Shown here piece after piece: positions 29,704 to 37,215 of a stretch of 64,000 nt of DNA; position 1 is the first letter of the stretch; each line of letters starts with the position of its first letter. The DNA comes from Erysipelothrix tonsillarum DSM 14972 (lineage in GTDB: Bacteria > Bacillota_I > Bacilli_A > Erysipelotrichales > Erysipelotrichaceae). The position numbers and the translations under genes are program-made. The DNA lies in NCBI RefSeq assembly GCF_000373785.1, contig NZ_KB892377.1, positions 1 through 64,000 on the forward strand, given 5' to 3'. The notes below the pieces were generated by a model, which worked only from the letters and a program-made list of their open reading frames with translations, had not been told where the DNA came from and did no database searches.

Positions 29704-29731
29704 TTGACAAATTTTCTGTATCCTATATAAT
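29704..29731 (+). promoter_or_regulatory. opp operon promoter
   Basis: Consensus -35 TTGACA (29704-29709), 16-nt spacer, consensus -10 TATAAT (29726-29731). A strong sigma-A promoter; start expected near 29738, giving a leader of about 54 nt. Confidence 0.88.
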
Positions 29732-29791
29732 ACATTCATACAGTATCACTTATCTGTATCAATGTTTGACAACAAAAGGAGGAGAATTACC

Positions 29792-31570
29792 ATGAAAAAA
29801 TTAATGATTGCATTAGTTGCAGCGTTAATGGTATTAACTGGTTGTGGATCTAAAGGTTCAGCTAGTACATTAACGGTAGCAGCCCCTGCTTCACAAAATG
29901 GTGACTTTGTGGAAGGGTTCGGTTCTAATGCTTACGACCGTTGGGCAACAAACTTAATGCACTTGGGAGCTAGCGTATTCTATATTGATCGCGATACTTC
30001 AGATATTAAGCCAAACCCTAACTTCGTTGAAAGCCACGAGGTTACTGCTGATAAAGAAGGTAATAAAACATATACTTTCAAAATCAAGTCAGGTAACAAA
30101 TATTCAGATGGAACTGAAGTTACAGCTAAAGATTACGTAATGGCAATGTTATTACGTGCTAATCCAGCTTGGATGAAAGTTGCATCAATGGAAAGTACAG
30201 GAGACGAACTTGTAGGCTATGAAGCATATAGCACAGGTGAATCAAAAGTATTCGAGGGTGTTAAACTTATCGATGATAATACTTTCTCATTAACAATTGA
30301 TAAAGCAAACTTGCCTTACTACTTTGAAGCAAGTAAAGCTGATATCTCACCAGAACCAATGCATGTTTGGTTTAAAGATGCAAAATTAAATGCTGAAGGT
30401 AATGCATTTGACAATACACCTGAAGAAATTCAAGCAGCTGTTGAATATGTTTCTACAACAGAACGATACAAACCATCCGTAGTAGTTGGACCATATAAGA
30501 TGGATAGCTATGAAAACGGAACTACAATCTTGGTTAAAAATGATCAATATGTAGGTAACTACGAAGGTGAAAAACCATCAGTAGATAAAGTTGTTATTCG
30601 TCAAGTTGATTCAAACGTTACAGTACAAGCTATTGAAAAAGGTGAAGTTGATTTATCACCAGGAAATATCGAAGGTGAATACATCAATAAAGCAAAAGAA
30701 CTTGAATTACAAACTGTTAACTATCCACGTAATGGATTTGGTAACATTACATTAAAAGCTAATAAAGGTCCTACTCAGTACAAAGAAGTACGTCAATCAA
30801 TCGGTTATATGTTAAACCGTAACGAATTCGTACAAAAAATTGCTGGTGGTTACGGTTCCGTTGTTAATGGTCCGTTTGGTCTATCACAATGGTTCTACAA
30901 AGACAATAAAGATGAAATCGAAAGCAAGTTGACAGACTATACTTACAACATTACTAAAGCAAACGAATTATTGGATCAATCAATCTATAAATTCGAAAAA
31001 GATGGTGTAACACCATTTGATGCAAGTAAAGCAAGTAAAGACTATGCTCGTTACGATGCAGATGGAAACAAACTTATTGTTAAACACTTTGGTTCTGAAA
31101 AGAACTCAGTAACTGACTTAATTGTTTCACAATTAGTACCTGCAGCTGAAAAAGCTGGTATGGAATACTACATTGAACAAGGTGAGTTTGCTACATTAGG
31201 CGCTTACATGCAAGGAATTGAAGAAAATGATTTCAACGCATTTAACCTTGCGACATCATTTACTTCACTATACGATCCATGGCAAAACCATTCAAAATAT
31301 GTTGGGACAGGTTTAAACTGGAGTGATGTTGCAGATCCAGAACTTGATGCAGCAATTGAAAAAGTACGCCGCATTGAACCAGGAAATCGTGAAGCTTACT
31401 CAGCAGCAGTTGTTGAATACTTCGAAATTTGGAATGATCTATTATTCCAAATCCCTCTCTACTCAAATCTATACCACGATATCGCATCAAACCGCGTTAA
31501 AGGGTTAGAAAAAGTAACACCTGAGATGGACTGGTCAAAAACAATGGAATATATCTCAATCGAAGATTAA
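29792..31570 (+). CDS. oppA: Oligopeptide-binding lipoprotein OppA
   Basis: Family 5 extracellular solute-binding lipoprotein, 592 aa. Signal ending in LTGC (Cys18). Typical SBP_bac_5 blocks: TYTFKIKSGNKYSDGTEVTAKDYVMAM and VVGPYKMDSYENGTTILVKNDQY. Start at ATG 29792 with AAAGGAGGAG 7 nt upstream; the frame from 29762 reads through the ribosome-binding site. It captures peptides for the OppBCDF importer that follows. A strong hairpin without T-run separates it from oppB. Confidence 0.94.
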   Translation: MKKLMIALVAALMVLTGCGSKGSASTLTVAAPASQNGDFVEGFGSNAYDRWATNLMHLGASVFYIDRDTSDIKPNPNFVESHEVTADKEGNKTYTFKIKSGNKYSDGTEVTAKDYVMAMLLRANPAWMKVASMESTGDELVGYEAYSTGESKVFEGVKLIDDNTFSLTIDKANLPYYFEASKADISPEPMHVWFKDAKLNAEGNAFDNTPEEIQAAVEYVSTTERYKPSVVVGPYKMDSYENGTTILVKNDQYVGNYEGEKPSVDKVVIRQVDSNVTVQAIEKGEVDLSPGNIEGEYINKAKELELQTVNYPRNGFGNITLKANKGPTQYKEVRQSIGYMLNRNEFVQKIAGGYGSVVNGPFGLSQWFYKDNKDEIESKLTDYTYNITKANELLDQSIYKFEKDGVTPFDASKASKDYARYDADGNKLIVKHFGSEKNSVTDLIVSQLVPAAEKAGMEYYIEQGEFATLGAYMQGIEENDFNAFNLATSFTSLYDPWQNHSKYVGTGLNWSDVADPELDAAIEKVRRIEPGNREAYSAAVVEYFEIWNDLLFQIPLYSNLYHDIASNRVKGLEKVTPEMDWSKTMEYISIED

Positions 31571-31594
31571 TTTGAGTTATAACTGAATGTAAGT

Positions 31595-31628
31595 ACTATA
31601 AGAAGTGTCAAGCGGCACTTCTTATAGT
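31595..31628 (+). promoter_or_regulatory. Strong hairpin between oppA and oppB
   Basis: 13-bp perfect stem ACTATAAGAAGTG/CACTTCTTATAGT with 8-nt loop and no T-run. Likely an RNA stability or partial-termination element that makes oppA mRNA more abundant than the permease mRNA. Confidence 0.75.
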
Positions 31629-31649
31629 CGTGTTAAAAGGAGAAAAACG

Positions 31650-32621
31650 ATGTTTAAGTATATAATAAAACGGATTATGTCGTTGATTCCTGTCGTGATC
31701 ATCATCTCAATTATGCTATTTTCATTAGTGAAAATGATGCCTGGTGATCCCGTTATAGGAATGATAAATCCAGCGATTAAAGATCCAGTACAATACCAAA
31801 GGGCTTATGATGAAGCTGCAGAGCGCATCGGTAATAATAAGCCACTCCCAGAACAATATGTTCGTTGGGTAAAAAATACACTTTCGGGAGATTTAGGAAT
31901 TTCAACTTCTAAAAACAAACCCGTTAAAGATGTTATTGCAACACCTTTAAAAAATACAGTCTTCCTCAATGTAATATCGACAACAATTGCCTTTGTGATT
32001 TCGATTATTGTGGGTATTAAATCAGCCGTTAATAGGGGTGGTAAATTTGATAAGTTCTGGCAGGTCTTTTCACTTGTCGGTATGTCAATGCCAACATTGT
32101 TAATCTCAATTCTACTAATTTATTTCTTCGCGATTAAATTAAGTATTTTCCCTACAGGGGGTATGCCGCTTGCGGGTACTACAGGGATTGCTTACGTAGC
32201 AGATTGGTTTAGATACGCAGCATTACCGATTATCACGTTAACCATTGGTTCATTTGCATCTACAATTCGATATGTCCGAAATGCAATGATCGAAGTTTTA
32301 AACAGCGATTATATTCGAACTGCACGTGCTAAAGGACTTTCCGGTAAAGTTATCATCTATTCACATGCCTTTAGAAATGCGTTAATTCCTGTTGTAACTG
32401 TTTTAGCTGGTTCAATTGCAGGAATCTTTGGTGGTGCAGCCATCACTGAGCAAATCTTCTCATGGAATGGGATTGGTAACGTCTTGATTCAAGGTGTTGG
32501 TAGCCGTGACTTCATGCTTGTACTAGCAATGAACATGTTCTACGCAGTCTTATCACTTGTTTCAAATATTATTATGGATATTGGATACGCGATGGTTGAC
32601 CCTCGTGTTAAATTAGATTAG
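31650..32621 (+). CDS. oppB: Oligopeptide ABC permease OppB
   Basis: About 323 aa, six hydrophobic segments, starting with MFKYIIKRIMSLIPVVIIISIM, the typical OppB/DppB N terminus. LVKMMPGDPV follows, and the EAA region RTARAKGLSGKVIIYSHAFRNALIPV contacts the ATPases. Start at ATG 31650 with AAAAGGAG upstream. It pairs with the fusion permease OppC downstream (10 nt gap). Confidence 0.94.
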   Translation: MFKYIIKRIMSLIPVVIIISIMLFSLVKMMPGDPVIGMINPAIKDPVQYQRAYDEAAERIGNNKPLPEQYVRWVKNTLSGDLGISTSKNKPVKDVIATPLKNTVFLNVISTTIAFVISIIVGIKSAVNRGGKFDKFWQVFSLVGMSMPTLLISILLIYFFAIKLSIFPTGGMPLAGTTGIAYVADWFRYAALPIITLTIGSFASTIRYVRNAMIEVLNSDYIRTARAKGLSGKVIIYSHAFRNALIPVVTVLAGSIAGIFGGAAITEQIFSWNGIGNVLIQGVGSRDFMLVLAMNMFYAVLSLVSNIIMDIGYAMVDPRVKLD

Positions 32622-32631
32622 GAGTTTTGAT

Positions 32632-34491
32632 ATGGACAATAATAAGAAGAATTCACTTTGGTCAAGTATCAAATCGATGTTTGCTAATCTATTTAAGAGT
32701 GGTGGACAAAGACATGAAGAGCTTGAAGATCTTATAGCAGATGATGTGGTTATTAGCCCATCTAAACAAATTGCTAAAAACTTTTTCGAAAATAAATTGG
32801 GTGTTACAGGACTTGTTGCTTTTGTATTAATCTTTGTAGTTGTATTTGGAACAACATCATTCAGACCGTACAACTCATATGATCATGAAACTGTACTAAA
32901 CAACTTGGCTCCGGGTATGAAATACTTAAATATTCCCAAGGAAATACAAGGAAAAAACATTGAAACAATAAGTAGTGGTACATCATACTCTGTTGCTTTA
33001 GATGATTCGGGGAAAGTTCACTTTTGGGGACAAAGACCTGATAAGAAATTTAAAGTTGATGATATCGTCGAAAAAACAAAAAACAGTAAAATTAAATCAC
33101 TTGCATCAGGAGATAAATTTGTTGTTGCCGTCACCGAAAACAATCAATTTATTGGTGTAGGAGAAAATACGTTCTCTCAAACAGAGCTACCATTTGATGT
33201 CATGGAAGATCTTGGTAGTGATAACATTGTTAAAGTAGCTGCTGGTAAACGTTTTACCGCAATTATTACAGATAGTGGAAAAATCTATACATGGGGTAGT
33301 GTTCTTGAAAACAATCTCGATAACATACCTAAAAATATTCAAGGTCGCGTAAAAGACTTTGCAATTGGACAATTTAATATTATTGCGTTACTTGATGATG
33401 GTTCACTTGTTGCCTTCGGACAAAGTGGTACAGAAGTTGGTGCCATTCCTACTGAATTAACAGATGGTTCTGTTAAAGTAACACAAGTCGAATTGACTAA
33501 AACGTCTGCAATGGCATTAGACTCTGAAGGAAATGTTCATACTTGGGGTGCACAGGGTAAATACCAAAGTGTTCCTGAACTTGATGGTAAAGTGGTTCAA
33601 ATTTCATCAACATTATCATCATTTAATGCCCTTACTGAATCAGGCCAAGTTTATGCTTGGGGTGATGGTAAGTTCAATTTAACAAACATACCTTCATCTA
33701 TTACAAATGTTAAAAATAAACAAATCTTCTCAGATCATTTCCAATCTTTCGCTGTTAGCGAAGACAATCAAATCAATGGTTGGGGAAATAAAGGATTTGT
33801 CCTAGGAACTGATGATATGGGTCGTTCTATTGGTGAACGTTTACTTTATGGTGGACGTATCTCACTCACTGTTGGTGCAATCTCAATGATTATCTCAACA
33901 GTAATTGGGGTTCTTGTGGGACTCATCGCTGGTTTCTACGGTGGTTGGGTTGATAATTTACTCATGCGTGTTGCAGAGGTTATCAGTGCATTCCCATTCC
34001 TTCCGTTAGCAATTACCCTTTCAGCATTACTCCCATCTTCAACGACACAGTCACAACGACTTGCGATGATCATGGTTATCCTCGGGGTAATTTCGTGGCC
34101 GGGAGTTGCGCGTCTCGTGCGTGGTCAAATTCTTGCGGAACGTGAGAAAGACTTCGTCTTGGCGGCACGTGCTTTAGGTCTTAAAGAAAAGACAATTATC
34201 ATTCGTCATATTCTTCCAAGTGTATTTAACTTCATTATCGTTAATATGACACTTGGATATGCATCAAGCTTACTTACAGAAGCAGGTCTTTCGTATTTAG
34301 GATTTGGTGTTAAGCCACCTTCACCATCATGGGGTAATATGTTAAATGGTGTTGCGAATACAACAGTTATTGAAAACTACTGGTGGCAATGGCTTCTACC
34401 AGCACTATGCGTTATGTTTACGGCTTTATCTGTAAACTTAATGGGTGATGCACTTCGTGATGCAATGGATCCGAAGTCGAACCAGAAATAG
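32632..34491 (+). CDS. oppC: OppC permease with an inserted RCC1-like beta-propeller
   Basis: 619 aa, about twice the normal OppC length. Residues 1-58 cytosolic, TM1 about 59-73, then SFRPYNSYDHETVLNNLAPG as in ordinary OppC. Normal OppC would continue directly to LGTDDMGRS; here that motif comes at 401-409. Between them (about 95-395, DNA 32914-33816) are seven repeats ending in a Gly-rich or Trp-Gly turn: VALDDSGKVHFWGQ, VAVTENNQFIGVGE, AIITDSGKIYTWGS, ALLDDGSLVAFGQ, ALDSEGNVHTWGA, ALTESGQVYAWGD, AVSEDNQINGWGN. Seven repeats suit an RCC1-type propeller. The remainder is a normal BPD permease with EAA loop (ARALGLKEKTIIIRHILPS). The propeller would face outside, near where OppA docks. Role unknown. 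Confidence 0.92.
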   Translation: MDNNKKNSLWSSIKSMFANLFKSGGQRHEELEDLIADDVVISPSKQIAKNFFENKLGVTGLVAFVLIFVVVFGTTSFRPYNSYDHETVLNNLAPGMKYLNIPKEIQGKNIETISSGTSYSVALDDSGKVHFWGQRPDKKFKVDDIVEKTKNSKIKSLASGDKFVVAVTENNQFIGVGENTFSQTELPFDVMEDLGSDNIVKVAAGKRFTAIITDSGKIYTWGSVLENNLDNIPKNIQGRVKDFAIGQFNIIALLDDGSLVAFGQSGTEVGAIPTELTDGSVKVTQVELTKTSAMALDSEGNVHTWGAQGKYQSVPELDGKVVQISSTLSSFNALTESGQVYAWGDGKFNLTNIPSSITNVKNKQIFSDHFQSFAVSEDNQINGWGNKGFVLGTDDMGRSIGERLLYGGRISLTVGAISMIISTVIGVLVGLIAGFYGGWVDNLLMRVAEVISAFPFLPLAITLSALLPSSTTQSQRLAMIMVILGVISWPGVARLVRGQILAEREKDFVLAARALGLKEKTIIIRHILPSVFNFIIVNMTLGYASSLLTEAGLSYLGFGVKPPSPSWGNMLNGVANTTVIENYWWQWLLPALCVMFTALSVNLMGDALRDAMDPKSNQK

Positions 34492-34506
34492 GGGATGGTA
34501 GATAAA

Positions 34507-34551
34507 ATGACAAATACAGTTAATTTAAAAAGTAAGGATGGGATTATATAA
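34507..34551 (+). CDS. 14-codon mini-ORF coupled to oppF
   Basis: ATG 34507 to TAA 34551 encodes MTNTVNLKSKDGII, with GGGGATGG upstream; its stop overlaps the oppF start as TAATG. It may only serve translational coupling, or be chance. No protein function is claimed. Confidence 0.3.
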   Translation: MTNTVNLKSKDGII

Positions 34552-36038
34552 TGGAAAACAAAGATAATCGCGTTCTCATTAAGGTTGAACACTTACAAAA
34601 ATATTTCCCAATAAAAAAATCAAGTGTTTTCCAACGTAAACAAGAGTATGTTAAAGCGAATAAAGATATCTCAATCGAAATCTTTGAAGGTGAAACACTT
34701 GGACTTGTTGGAGAATCAGGTTGTGGTAAATCCACTTTTGGTCGTACACTCATTCAGTTGTACGATCAAACAGGTGGCGTATCCCTTTATTATGGTGAAA
34801 CAATTGAAGAAATGATGCCTGAGTACGTACGCGGAGTATATAAATCAATACCAAAGGTTTTTGGTAAACATGATGACGAATACAAGGCGATTAAAGATCT
34901 CGAAGCAAAAATCGAAGGAACATCAGGTGAAGAATTTATCGAACTAAACGAATCATTGCGTCTTTTAAAGATTGCATACGAATCGACATATGGTAATATT
35001 TTCCGTCTTGCAGGTGGACTCTTGGTTCATGAAAATTTAAATGAAGTAAGTAAATTATTACTTTCAAAATATCAAAAGGGTAGTGCTGTCGCAAAACTGC
35101 ACAAAGAACTTGAACTTGAAACCTTGCGTAATACCATGCAAGATAAAAAAGCTAATGGTAATATATCAAGCTTGAATGCAAAATTAGATGCAGCACAAAA
35201 AGAACTCGATGACGTTAATGTGGTTATTAACGAAATGAAGGCTAAATTATCATCACATGATAAATTTGAAGAATATGAATCATTACTTGATGATGGTATT
35301 GATTTATCATCACTTAACAAACAAGAGATGCGTTTCTTACGTAAAGACTTACAAATTATTTTCCAAGATCCATATTCATCACTAGATCCACGCTTCACTG
35401 TTGGAAACATTATCGGAGAAGGGCTCATTGCTCATAAACTCTTTAAAGATGCAAATAGTGAAGAGTACAATGACTACATCATTGACATTATGGAGAAATG
35501 TGGTCTTGAAAAAGAATACATTCATCGTTATCCTCACCAATTTTCAGGTGGACAACGTCAACGTATTGGGATTGCACGTGCATTAGCATTGCGTCCTAAG
35601 TTCATCGTTTGTGATGAAGCGGTTAGTGCCTTGGATGTTTCAATTCAATCACAAGTTATTAACTTACTTCAAGATCTTAAGGATGAACATAACCTAACAT
35701 ATCTCTTTATTACACATGACCTTGGTGTTGTGCGTTATATCAGTGACCGTATTGGTGTTATGTACTTCGGTAATTTAGTAGAACTTGCGCCTGCTGAAGA
35801 AATCTTTAGCAACCCGCAACATCCATATACAAAGCAATTGCTAGCAGCAATTCCTCGTATGGAAAAAGATGAAGCAGAAATTGCGGAACTTCTAAAAGTT
35901 GTTCCAAATGGTATTTTTGACTTTACCTTTGAAGAAACAGGTGAAGCGGACAAAGATTGGTATGAAGTATCTCCAGATCACTTTGTAGCATGTCGTTTAT
36001 TGAATGCGGAAGCTAAAAATACGAAAGGAGGTATGTAA
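34551..36038 (+). CDS. oppF: Oligopeptide ABC ATPase OppF with large helical insertion
   Basis: 495 aa against roughly 310-330 for ordinary OppF. Walker A GESGCGKST (54-62), then where OppF usually has about 30 residues before the Q-loop there is an extra stretch of about 165 residues (about 83-247, DNA 34797-35291), rich in charged residues and with coiled-coil character (LNAKLDAAQKELDDVNVVINEMKAKL). Then QIIFQDPYSSLDPR (Q-loop Gln272), FSGGQRQR signature, CDEAVSALDVS Walker B, and the C-terminal oligopeptide/dipeptide (OppF-type) tail. Motifs are intact, so it should hydrolyse ATP. It pairs with OppD. Confidence 0.92.
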   Translation: MENKDNRVLIKVEHLQKYFPIKKSSVFQRKQEYVKANKDISIEIFEGETLGLVGESGCGKSTFGRTLIQLYDQTGGVSLYYGETIEEMMPEYVRGVYKSIPKVFGKHDDEYKAIKDLEAKIEGTSGEEFIELNESLRLLKIAYESTYGNIFRLAGGLLVHENLNEVSKLLLSKYQKGSAVAKLHKELELETLRNTMQDKKANGNISSLNAKLDAAQKELDDVNVVINEMKAKLSSHDKFEEYESLLDDGIDLSSLNKQEMRFLRKDLQIIFQDPYSSLDPRFTVGNIIGEGLIAHKLFKDANSEEYNDYIIDIMEKCGLEKEYIHRYPHQFSGGQRQRIGIARALALRPKFIVCDEAVSALDVSIQSQVINLLQDLKDEHNLTYLFITHDLGVVRYISDRIGVMYFGNLVELAPAEEIFSNPQHPYTKQLLAAIPRMEKDEAEIAELLKVVPNGIFDFTFEETGEADKDWYEVSPDHFVACRLLNAEAKNTKGGM

Positions 36039-36040
36039 TT

Positions 36041-36982
36041 ATGGCTTTGTTAGAAATTAAAAATTTACATACTTACTTTGATACAAAACGTGGTTTAGTT
36101 AAAGCCGTGAATGGTGTATCGTTCTCAGTTGAAGAAGGACGCACATTGGGTATTGTTGGAGAATCAGGAAGTGGTAAGAGCCAAACAGCGATGTCTATCT
36201 TACAACTCTTTGAATCAAACCAACGTATTTATGAAGGTGAAATCATCTTTAATGGTGAAGTTCTATCAGATTACAATGAAGAACAATTGCGAAAGATTCG
36301 TGGAAATGATATTTCAATGATTTTCCAAGAACCAATGACAAGTTTAAATCCGGTATTCACTGTGGAGCGTCAGATTAGTGAAGTATTAATGCTTCACCAA
36401 GGGATGACGAAACAAGAAGCAAGTCAACGTGCATTAGAAATGCTTGCATCTGTTAAAATTCCTCGCCCAGAGAAAGTATTACAAAACTATCCACACCAAT
36501 TATCTGGTGGGATGAGTCAACGCGTTATGATCGCGATGGCTCTTGCATGTAATCCTAAACTTTTAATTGCAGATGAGCCTACTACGGCTCTTGATGTTAT
36601 CATTCAAGCAGAAATTCTTAAGCTTATGAATGACTTAAAGAATGATTATAATACATCCATTCTATTTATTACCCATGACTTAGGTGTTATCAGTCAAATG
36701 GCTGATGATGTTATCGTTATGTATGGTGGTAAAATTGTTGAAGCTGCACCAATTAAAACAATCTTTAATGATGCTAAACATCCGTATACGAAACGCTTGT
36801 TGAATGCATTCCTTAAAACAGATATCAGTGGTCGAAAAGATCGTGAAGAAGTTGAAGCGGATCTTTATTCTTCAGAAAATGAAGTTTACGATTTCTATAA
36901 CTTTAAAACGAATGCGATTGCAGATACTGATTGGCACTGTGTTGGTGAAAACCACTATGTTGCATGTAATTTAAAGAAATAA
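36041..36982 (+). CDS. oppD: Oligopeptide ABC ATPase OppD
   Basis: 313 aa, standard length. Walker A GESGSGKSQTA, Q-loop MIFQEPMTSLNPVFTV (OppD type), signature LSGGMSQR, Walker B IADEPTTALDVI, switch FITHDLGV. The Cys-containing C-terminal motif in relatives is represented by HYVACNL at the end, shared with OppF (HFVACRL). AAAGGAGG upstream. It overlaps the following small gene start. Confidence 0.93.
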   Translation: MALLEIKNLHTYFDTKRGLVKAVNGVSFSVEEGRTLGIVGESGSGKSQTAMSILQLFESNQRIYEGEIIFNGEVLSDYNEEQLRKIRGNDISMIFQEPMTSLNPVFTVERQISEVLMLHQGMTKQEASQRALEMLASVKIPRPEKVLQNYPHQLSGGMSQRVMIAMALACNPKLLIADEPTTALDVIIQAEILKLMNDLKNDYNTSILFITHDLGVISQMADDVIVMYGGKIVEAAPIKTIFNDAKHPYTKRLLNAFLKTDISGRKDREEVEADLYSSENEVYDFYNFKTNAIADTDWHCVGENHYVACNLKK

Positions 36983-37173: not shown

Positions 37174-37184
37174 ATACACTTAGG

Positions 37185-37215
37185 AAGCCGTCTAAAGACG
37201 GCTTTCATTTATTTT
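37185..37215 (+). terminator. Terminator of opp operon
   Basis: AAGCCGTC-TAAA-GACGGCTT, perfect 8-bp stem, T-rich tail. Confidence 0.88.

Follow-up and report, generated by a model that had tools for sequence, protein, structure and literature searches.

The window analysed here, a stretch of 64,000 nucleotides from Erysipelothrix tonsillarum DSM 14972, carries on its forward strand five genes in the order oppA-oppB-oppC-oppF-oppD (29762–36982), and their sequences identify the system as an OppABCDF peptide ABC importer of an Opp4-like branch. The first gene (29762–31570, true start probably at 29792) encodes the lipoprotein OppA, with an SBP_bac_5 domain, as recognised from the open reading frame, Pfam and a genome search. 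It is followed by oppB (31605–32621, true start probably at 31650), whose product, a permease of 338 aa assigned from the open reading frame, Pfam and NCBIfam, is without a large ectodomain, by oppC (32632–34491) and by the genes of the ATPases OppF (34551–36038, 495 aa; open reading frame, Pfam and measurement) and OppD (36041–36982, 313 aa; open reading frame, NCBIfam and measurement). In OppF the Walker A motif lies at residue 54 and the Q-loop at residue 271, with about 167 extra residues between them; this insert, with approximate limits at 34803–35300, is rich in Lys and Glu and looks helical by eye, and OppD is free of it. Mycoplasma-type OppF models match the window OppF in several pieces. 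A consensus scan gave a promoter-like site upstream of oppA (29704–29731, forward strand; TTGACA-16-TATAAT, 12 of 12 matches) and a terminator-like hairpin 3′ of oppD (37183–37206, forward strand), and no riboswitch or other RNA element upstream was above the Rfam gathering scores. Moreover, in profile searches of the genome, whose assembly is 97% complete, OppA was the only SBP_bac_5 match and the product of 32632–34491 the only OppC match.

The oppC gene is one open reading frame of 619 aa with an ATG start, and this single frame holds OppC_N, six RCC1_2 stretches and BPD_transp_1 (residues 426–615), all above the Pfam cut-offs. The first transmembrane helix, TM1 (residues ~54–78, 32791–32865; helix 55–77 in the structural model), lies within OppC_N (PF12911, residues 42–94, 26.1 bits against a cut-off of 23.9). 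It is followed by an extracellular seven-bladed propeller of the RCC1/BLIP-II type (residues ~95–386, 32914–33789), which is matched by PF13540 (RCC1_2) in six stretches with an E-value of 3.8e-30 (103.3 bits, cut-off 22) and by PF00415 (RCC1; 30.3 bits, cut-off 21.7). The conserved OppC core begins at the motif LGTDDMGRS (residues 391–399, 33802–33828), which is kept in the family alignment, and continues in the BPD_transp_1 transmembrane core (residues 400–617, 33829–34482; PF00528, 6e-30, 104.8 bits, cut-off 26.4). Two further models scored below their thresholds, namely PF25390 (WD40_RLD, RCC1-like domain), with 118.3 bits against 150, and the NCBIfam Opp4C equivalog NF045476, with 317.5 bits against 350, the latter still being the top match among all OppC models. 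The OppC sequence alone matched solved DppC/OppC at 5.6e-51, as well as the solved RCC1-type propellers of BLIP-II (8e-12), UVR8 (~1e-11) and HERC2.

The cytosolic N-terminus of OppC (residues 1–40, 32632–32751) has an SIxxLFxxLF-like, possibly amphipathic, pattern, which in the alignment is common to several propeller-bearing families and is also present in L120, L125 and L126. A second RCC1-repeat protein of the same genome, an open frame of 1742 residues with a signal-like N-terminus (L168 3–2636, minus strand; G000:C2, ~328.5–331.1 kb), is probably secreted or wall-bound.

Fold, topology and ancestry of the propeller

The structure of OppC was predicted by AlphaFold2 from a family alignment of 23 sequences, and the model was compared with solved folds by Foldseek and VIA-align. 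Its mean pLDDT is 84, with residues 90–400 mostly at 89–96, and between residues 110 and 385 it forms a ring of seven blades, each three- or four-stranded, whose strand triplets begin at residues 110, 154, 199, 240, 283, 321 and 362. The nearest solved fold to the propeller is BLIP-II (Z 30.9, 2.1 Å, 257 residues, 26% identity), while E. coli OppC (8z21_B) aligns with 278 of its 278 residues (Z 30.1, 2.5 Å) over model residues 40–614. Thus, the predicted protein is an entire OppC into which, between TM1 and the LGTD motif, an entire propeller has been inserted. A cytosolic propeller is ruled out by the homology of OppC_N and TM1 and by the alignment to solved OppC; since the propeller is extracellular, a Ran guanine-nucleotide exchange activity, as in RCC1, is very unlikely. 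A misassembly or chimera is ruled out as well, because the same fusion recurs in ~33 independent assemblies, including isolates. A sequence-only reading of this DNA had placed seven repeats between TM1 and LGTDDMGRS, at residues 95–395, on the outer face of the permease. Pfam and the model bear out the repeats, the range was correct to within a few residues, and the outer location agrees with the OppC_N/TM1–TM2 topology; the propeller that it had expected a prediction to return is given confidently by AlphaFold2, with seven blades of the RCC1 type, and the assembly artefact that it had reckoned with is excluded by the recurrence.

Ordinary OppC/DppC proteins, as in E. coli OppBCDF (8z21) and DppBCDF (8z1v) and in M. 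tuberculosis OppABCD (8j5q), are alike in TM1, LGTD motif, BPD_transp_1 and oppABCDF operon, whereas the window OppC has ~290 extra residues, folded as the propeller, between TM1 and LGTD. BLIP-II (3qhy, 1jtd) shares with the window propeller the fold, the short blades of ~40 residues and the extracellular location; it is, however, a free secreted inhibitor, and the window propeller is built into a membrane permease.

The architecture is known from ~33 genomes in all, and 20 of the 98 nearest-relative genomes, the window's own counted, carry it. It occurs in Erysipelotrichaceae, in four further families of its class (f3, f20, f21 and f25) and in Tissierellia (Neofamilia), and the named records are Longicatena caecimuris, Neofamilia massiliensis and two MAGs labelled Eubacteriales and Bacillota. 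In the genus of the window, the propeller is missing from some species, which have ordinary Opp systems. Open frames of 648–677 aa flagged as long OppC in related genomes proved false, the five regions read encoding ordinary OppCs of ~307–335 aa. When a tree was built from the permease cores without the propeller, all 27 RCC1 forms fell into one clade (support 100/99); therefore, a single ancient origin of the architecture is likely.

Comparison with the three nearest relatives shows strong purifying selection on the propeller and nothing that points to diversification: its dN/dS is 0.046–0.051, and that of the transmembrane core 0.028–0.036. At larger distances such values suffer from dS saturation. 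Mean pairwise identity over the whole family is 0.35 in the propeller versus 0.61 in the core. The most conserved turns are those linking strands 1 and 2 in blades 7, 1 and 2 (0.54–0.59, versus 0.15–0.28 in blades 3–6), which adjoin the entry and exit of the propeller, nearest the membrane junction; the WG/G turn residues are likewise fixed, and the long inter-blade loops are variable (0.17–0.37). One sub-branch has decorated propellers, with an OppC of 1149 aa in L137 (G287:C40) and of 760 aa in L138 (G390:C76), in which the extra segments lie within or between the RCC1 blades and, in L137, include a long coiled-coil-like stretch.

The OppF insert and another ectodomain at the same loop

The stretch from Walker A to the Q-loop was 158–415 residues long in all 23 complete RCC1 operons measured (the window, L137–L139, L141, L144–L148, L150–L158, L160 and L033–L035), whereas in the control ATPases it spanned 22–61 residues in 69 of 70 and 113 in the remaining one; for the window OppF the distance is 209, versus 42 in control OppFs. 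The two largest OppCs, of 1149 and 760 aa, accompany the two largest OppFs, of 718 and 646 aa. oppA and oppB always lie beside the RCC1-type oppC (the contig of L148 ends before oppA), and so do oppD and oppF, with the exception of one long-branched sub-branch made up of L020 (entered also as L159, G050) and L124 (G367). Here the propeller is kept and the genomes hold only plain OppF, so that the pairing of propeller and OppF insert is not obligatory; L020/L159 is, moreover, an orphan oppABC with no oppDF adjacent, which would therefore need ATPases in trans. Descent of the whole branch from one ancestor could by itself account for the pairing, with no functional link needed. When the distances between propellers were compared with those between partner proteins, beyond what the transmembrane domain accounts for, the partial correlation was 0.60 for OppF, 0.39 for OppA and 0.30–0.31 for OppB and OppD; as OppF is higher and OppB and OppD are only slightly lower, this measure fails to single out OppA.

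A neighbouring OppC branch, found in Eubacterium, Lachnospiraceae and some Erysipelotrichaceae, carries at the same loop an unrelated ectodomain of ~210–460 residues. These OppCs (L027, L028, L040, L057, L074 and L171–L173) share a permease branch with the RCC1 forms (support 99/95), and a profile comparison of the two OppC alignments covered only the permease core. The alternative ectodomain had no match in Pfam, and none in the PDB beyond the OppC core. Its AlphaFold2 model is weak (mean pLDDT 59.8) and seems to be made of repeated helix-plus-strands units. The OppF insert was absent in both operons of this kind that were checked. As unrelated ectodomains occupy one site, the TM1–TM2 loop in this branch of OppC has gained large ectodomains at least twice.

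Possible roles of the propeller at the presumed OppA-docking face

Permease ectodomains beside a binding protein have precedents. MalF P2 is a folded extracytoplasmic permease-loop domain of the maltose importer (PMC8134467), for which Daus 2009 and Grote 2009, both cited in PMC3328499, report contact with MalE in all phases of the cycle and signalling of substrate availability to MalK. Like the propeller, it forms a folded unit within a loop of a type I importer permease and lies beside the binding protein, but permease family, loop and fold are different, and the likeness is one of position and, putatively, of role. For pneumococcal Ami, the sole oligopeptide importer of an auxotroph, a model has the TM1–TM2 loop of AmiD (residues 64–99) touching lobe 2 of the binding protein, which ECD1 and ECD2, the large ectodomains of AmiC, are proposed to clamp (PMC11192437). 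AmiC and the window OppC are both Opp-family permeases with a large extracellular domain. AmiC, however, is the OppB-type subunit, and its ectodomains are not described as RCC1 propellers; in the window OppC bears the domain and OppB is short.

Because the propeller stands at the position of the AmiD loop and OppB is short, we suggest, with about even confidence, that it is a tethered platform for OppA docking and peptide handover. By analogy it would adjoin the seat of OppA, and the AmiD loop (PMC11192437) lends support to the sequence-only reading, which had set the propeller next to the OppA docking site. Such a platform would take hold of peptide-loaded OppA by one lobe, might align or open it above the OppB/OppC pore and might aid the release of long peptides. 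Its part in OppC would then resemble that of MalF-P2 towards the maltose-binding protein, or that proposed for the AmiC ectodomains in pneumococcus; more speculatively, the enlarged OppF may be a cytosolic counterpart that tunes the use of ATP. The conserved turns of blades 7, 1 and 2 near the junction are what is expected of a fixed contact inside a complex. Also in favour are the constant company of oppA and oppB, the single clade, the low dN/dS, the repeated gain of large ectodomains at this loop and the correlation of propeller with OppA distances. That ordinary Opp systems work without a propeller counts against the docking platform, as do the failure of that correlation to single out OppA and the faster evolution of the propeller than of the transmembrane domain over wider distances.

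The variable inter-blade loops look instead like a ligand-reading surface, and the propeller could be a ligand-binding domain in its own right, taking up peptides or proteins at the surface for delivery to OppA or straight to the pore. We consider this possible, if rather unlikely. Its nearest fold, BLIP-II, is secreted and binds another protein with picomolar affinity, the propellers of UVR8, HERC2 and RPGR bind partners too, and with a single Opp system detected a wider capture range could be useful; the faster evolution of the propeller than of the transmembrane domain over wider distances would also fit a ligand-facing or exposed domain. On the other hand, the propeller showed neither a catalytic motif nor a known ligand motif, the conserved surface residues lie at the turns near the junction and not in the variable loops, and OppA already does the capturing. 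Contact with the host, by an adhesin-like domain on the importer of a host-associated bacterium, is quite improbable, even if the propeller is on the outer face and its named carriers include the gut bacteria Longicatena caecimuris and Neofamilia massiliensis. The thick Gram-positive wall would cover a domain so close to the membrane, the propeller shows purifying selection (dN/dS ~0.05) and no diversification, it is conserved, from one origin, in five families of the class as well as in Tissierellia, and the secreted RCC1 protein of 1742 residues would be better suited to the task. A passive spacer or stabiliser, which sets the height of OppA within the zone of the cell wall but makes no contact of a specific kind, would tolerate both the variable loops and the different ectodomains that related lineages put at the same loop, but the purifying selection and the conserved turns of blades 7, 1 and 2 make it highly improbable.

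The OppF insert could assign the propeller to a regulatory pair, in which OppA or peptide is sensed outside and ATP is gated, or a cytosolic partner docked, inside. The insert accompanies the propeller in every complete operon measured and none of the 70 control nucleotide-binding domains has one of such size, the largest forms of the two proteins go together, OppF has the highest partial correlation, and signalling from periplasm to nucleotide-binding domain has a reported precedent in MalF-P2 (Daus 2009 and Grote 2009, cited in PMC3328499). We nevertheless hold such a pair to be unlikely: L020 and L124 keep the propeller with only plain OppF, L020 even without an adjacent oppDF, and joint inheritance from one ancestor would give an equal pattern. 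A two-sided importer, in which the OppC propeller reads OppA or the peptide, the coupled enlarged OppF gates ATP hydrolysis or signalling, and the importer doubles as a peptide sensor, is decidedly unlikely. Of the roles proposed in the sequence-only reading, recognition of OppA fits best, and host contact is weakened by the deep conservation, the low dN/dS and the single ancient origin; its observation was real and its interpretation is supported in part, and it had missed the OppF insert and the sister-lineage ectodomain at the same site. It had also known of no described transporter of this form, and our literature search, whose coverage excluded subscription papers and preprints, found no paper describing an RCC1 propeller on an OppC-type permease.

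The propeller fold itself and permease ectodomains that meet a binding protein are already known, and the importer is not a new class of system; it is an Opp importer with a permease ectodomain. Peptide importers feed many bacteria that require amino acids, and also import signalling peptides; in this genome, the only such importer detected bears a well-folded domain of a protein-binding type where OppA should dock. Since sister lineages have a different domain at the same place, the recognition and opening of the binding protein would be directly testable with the soluble domain. Moreover, if the OppF insert proves to be linked to the propeller, this family would be a naturally occurring example of a type I importer controlled from outside to inside.
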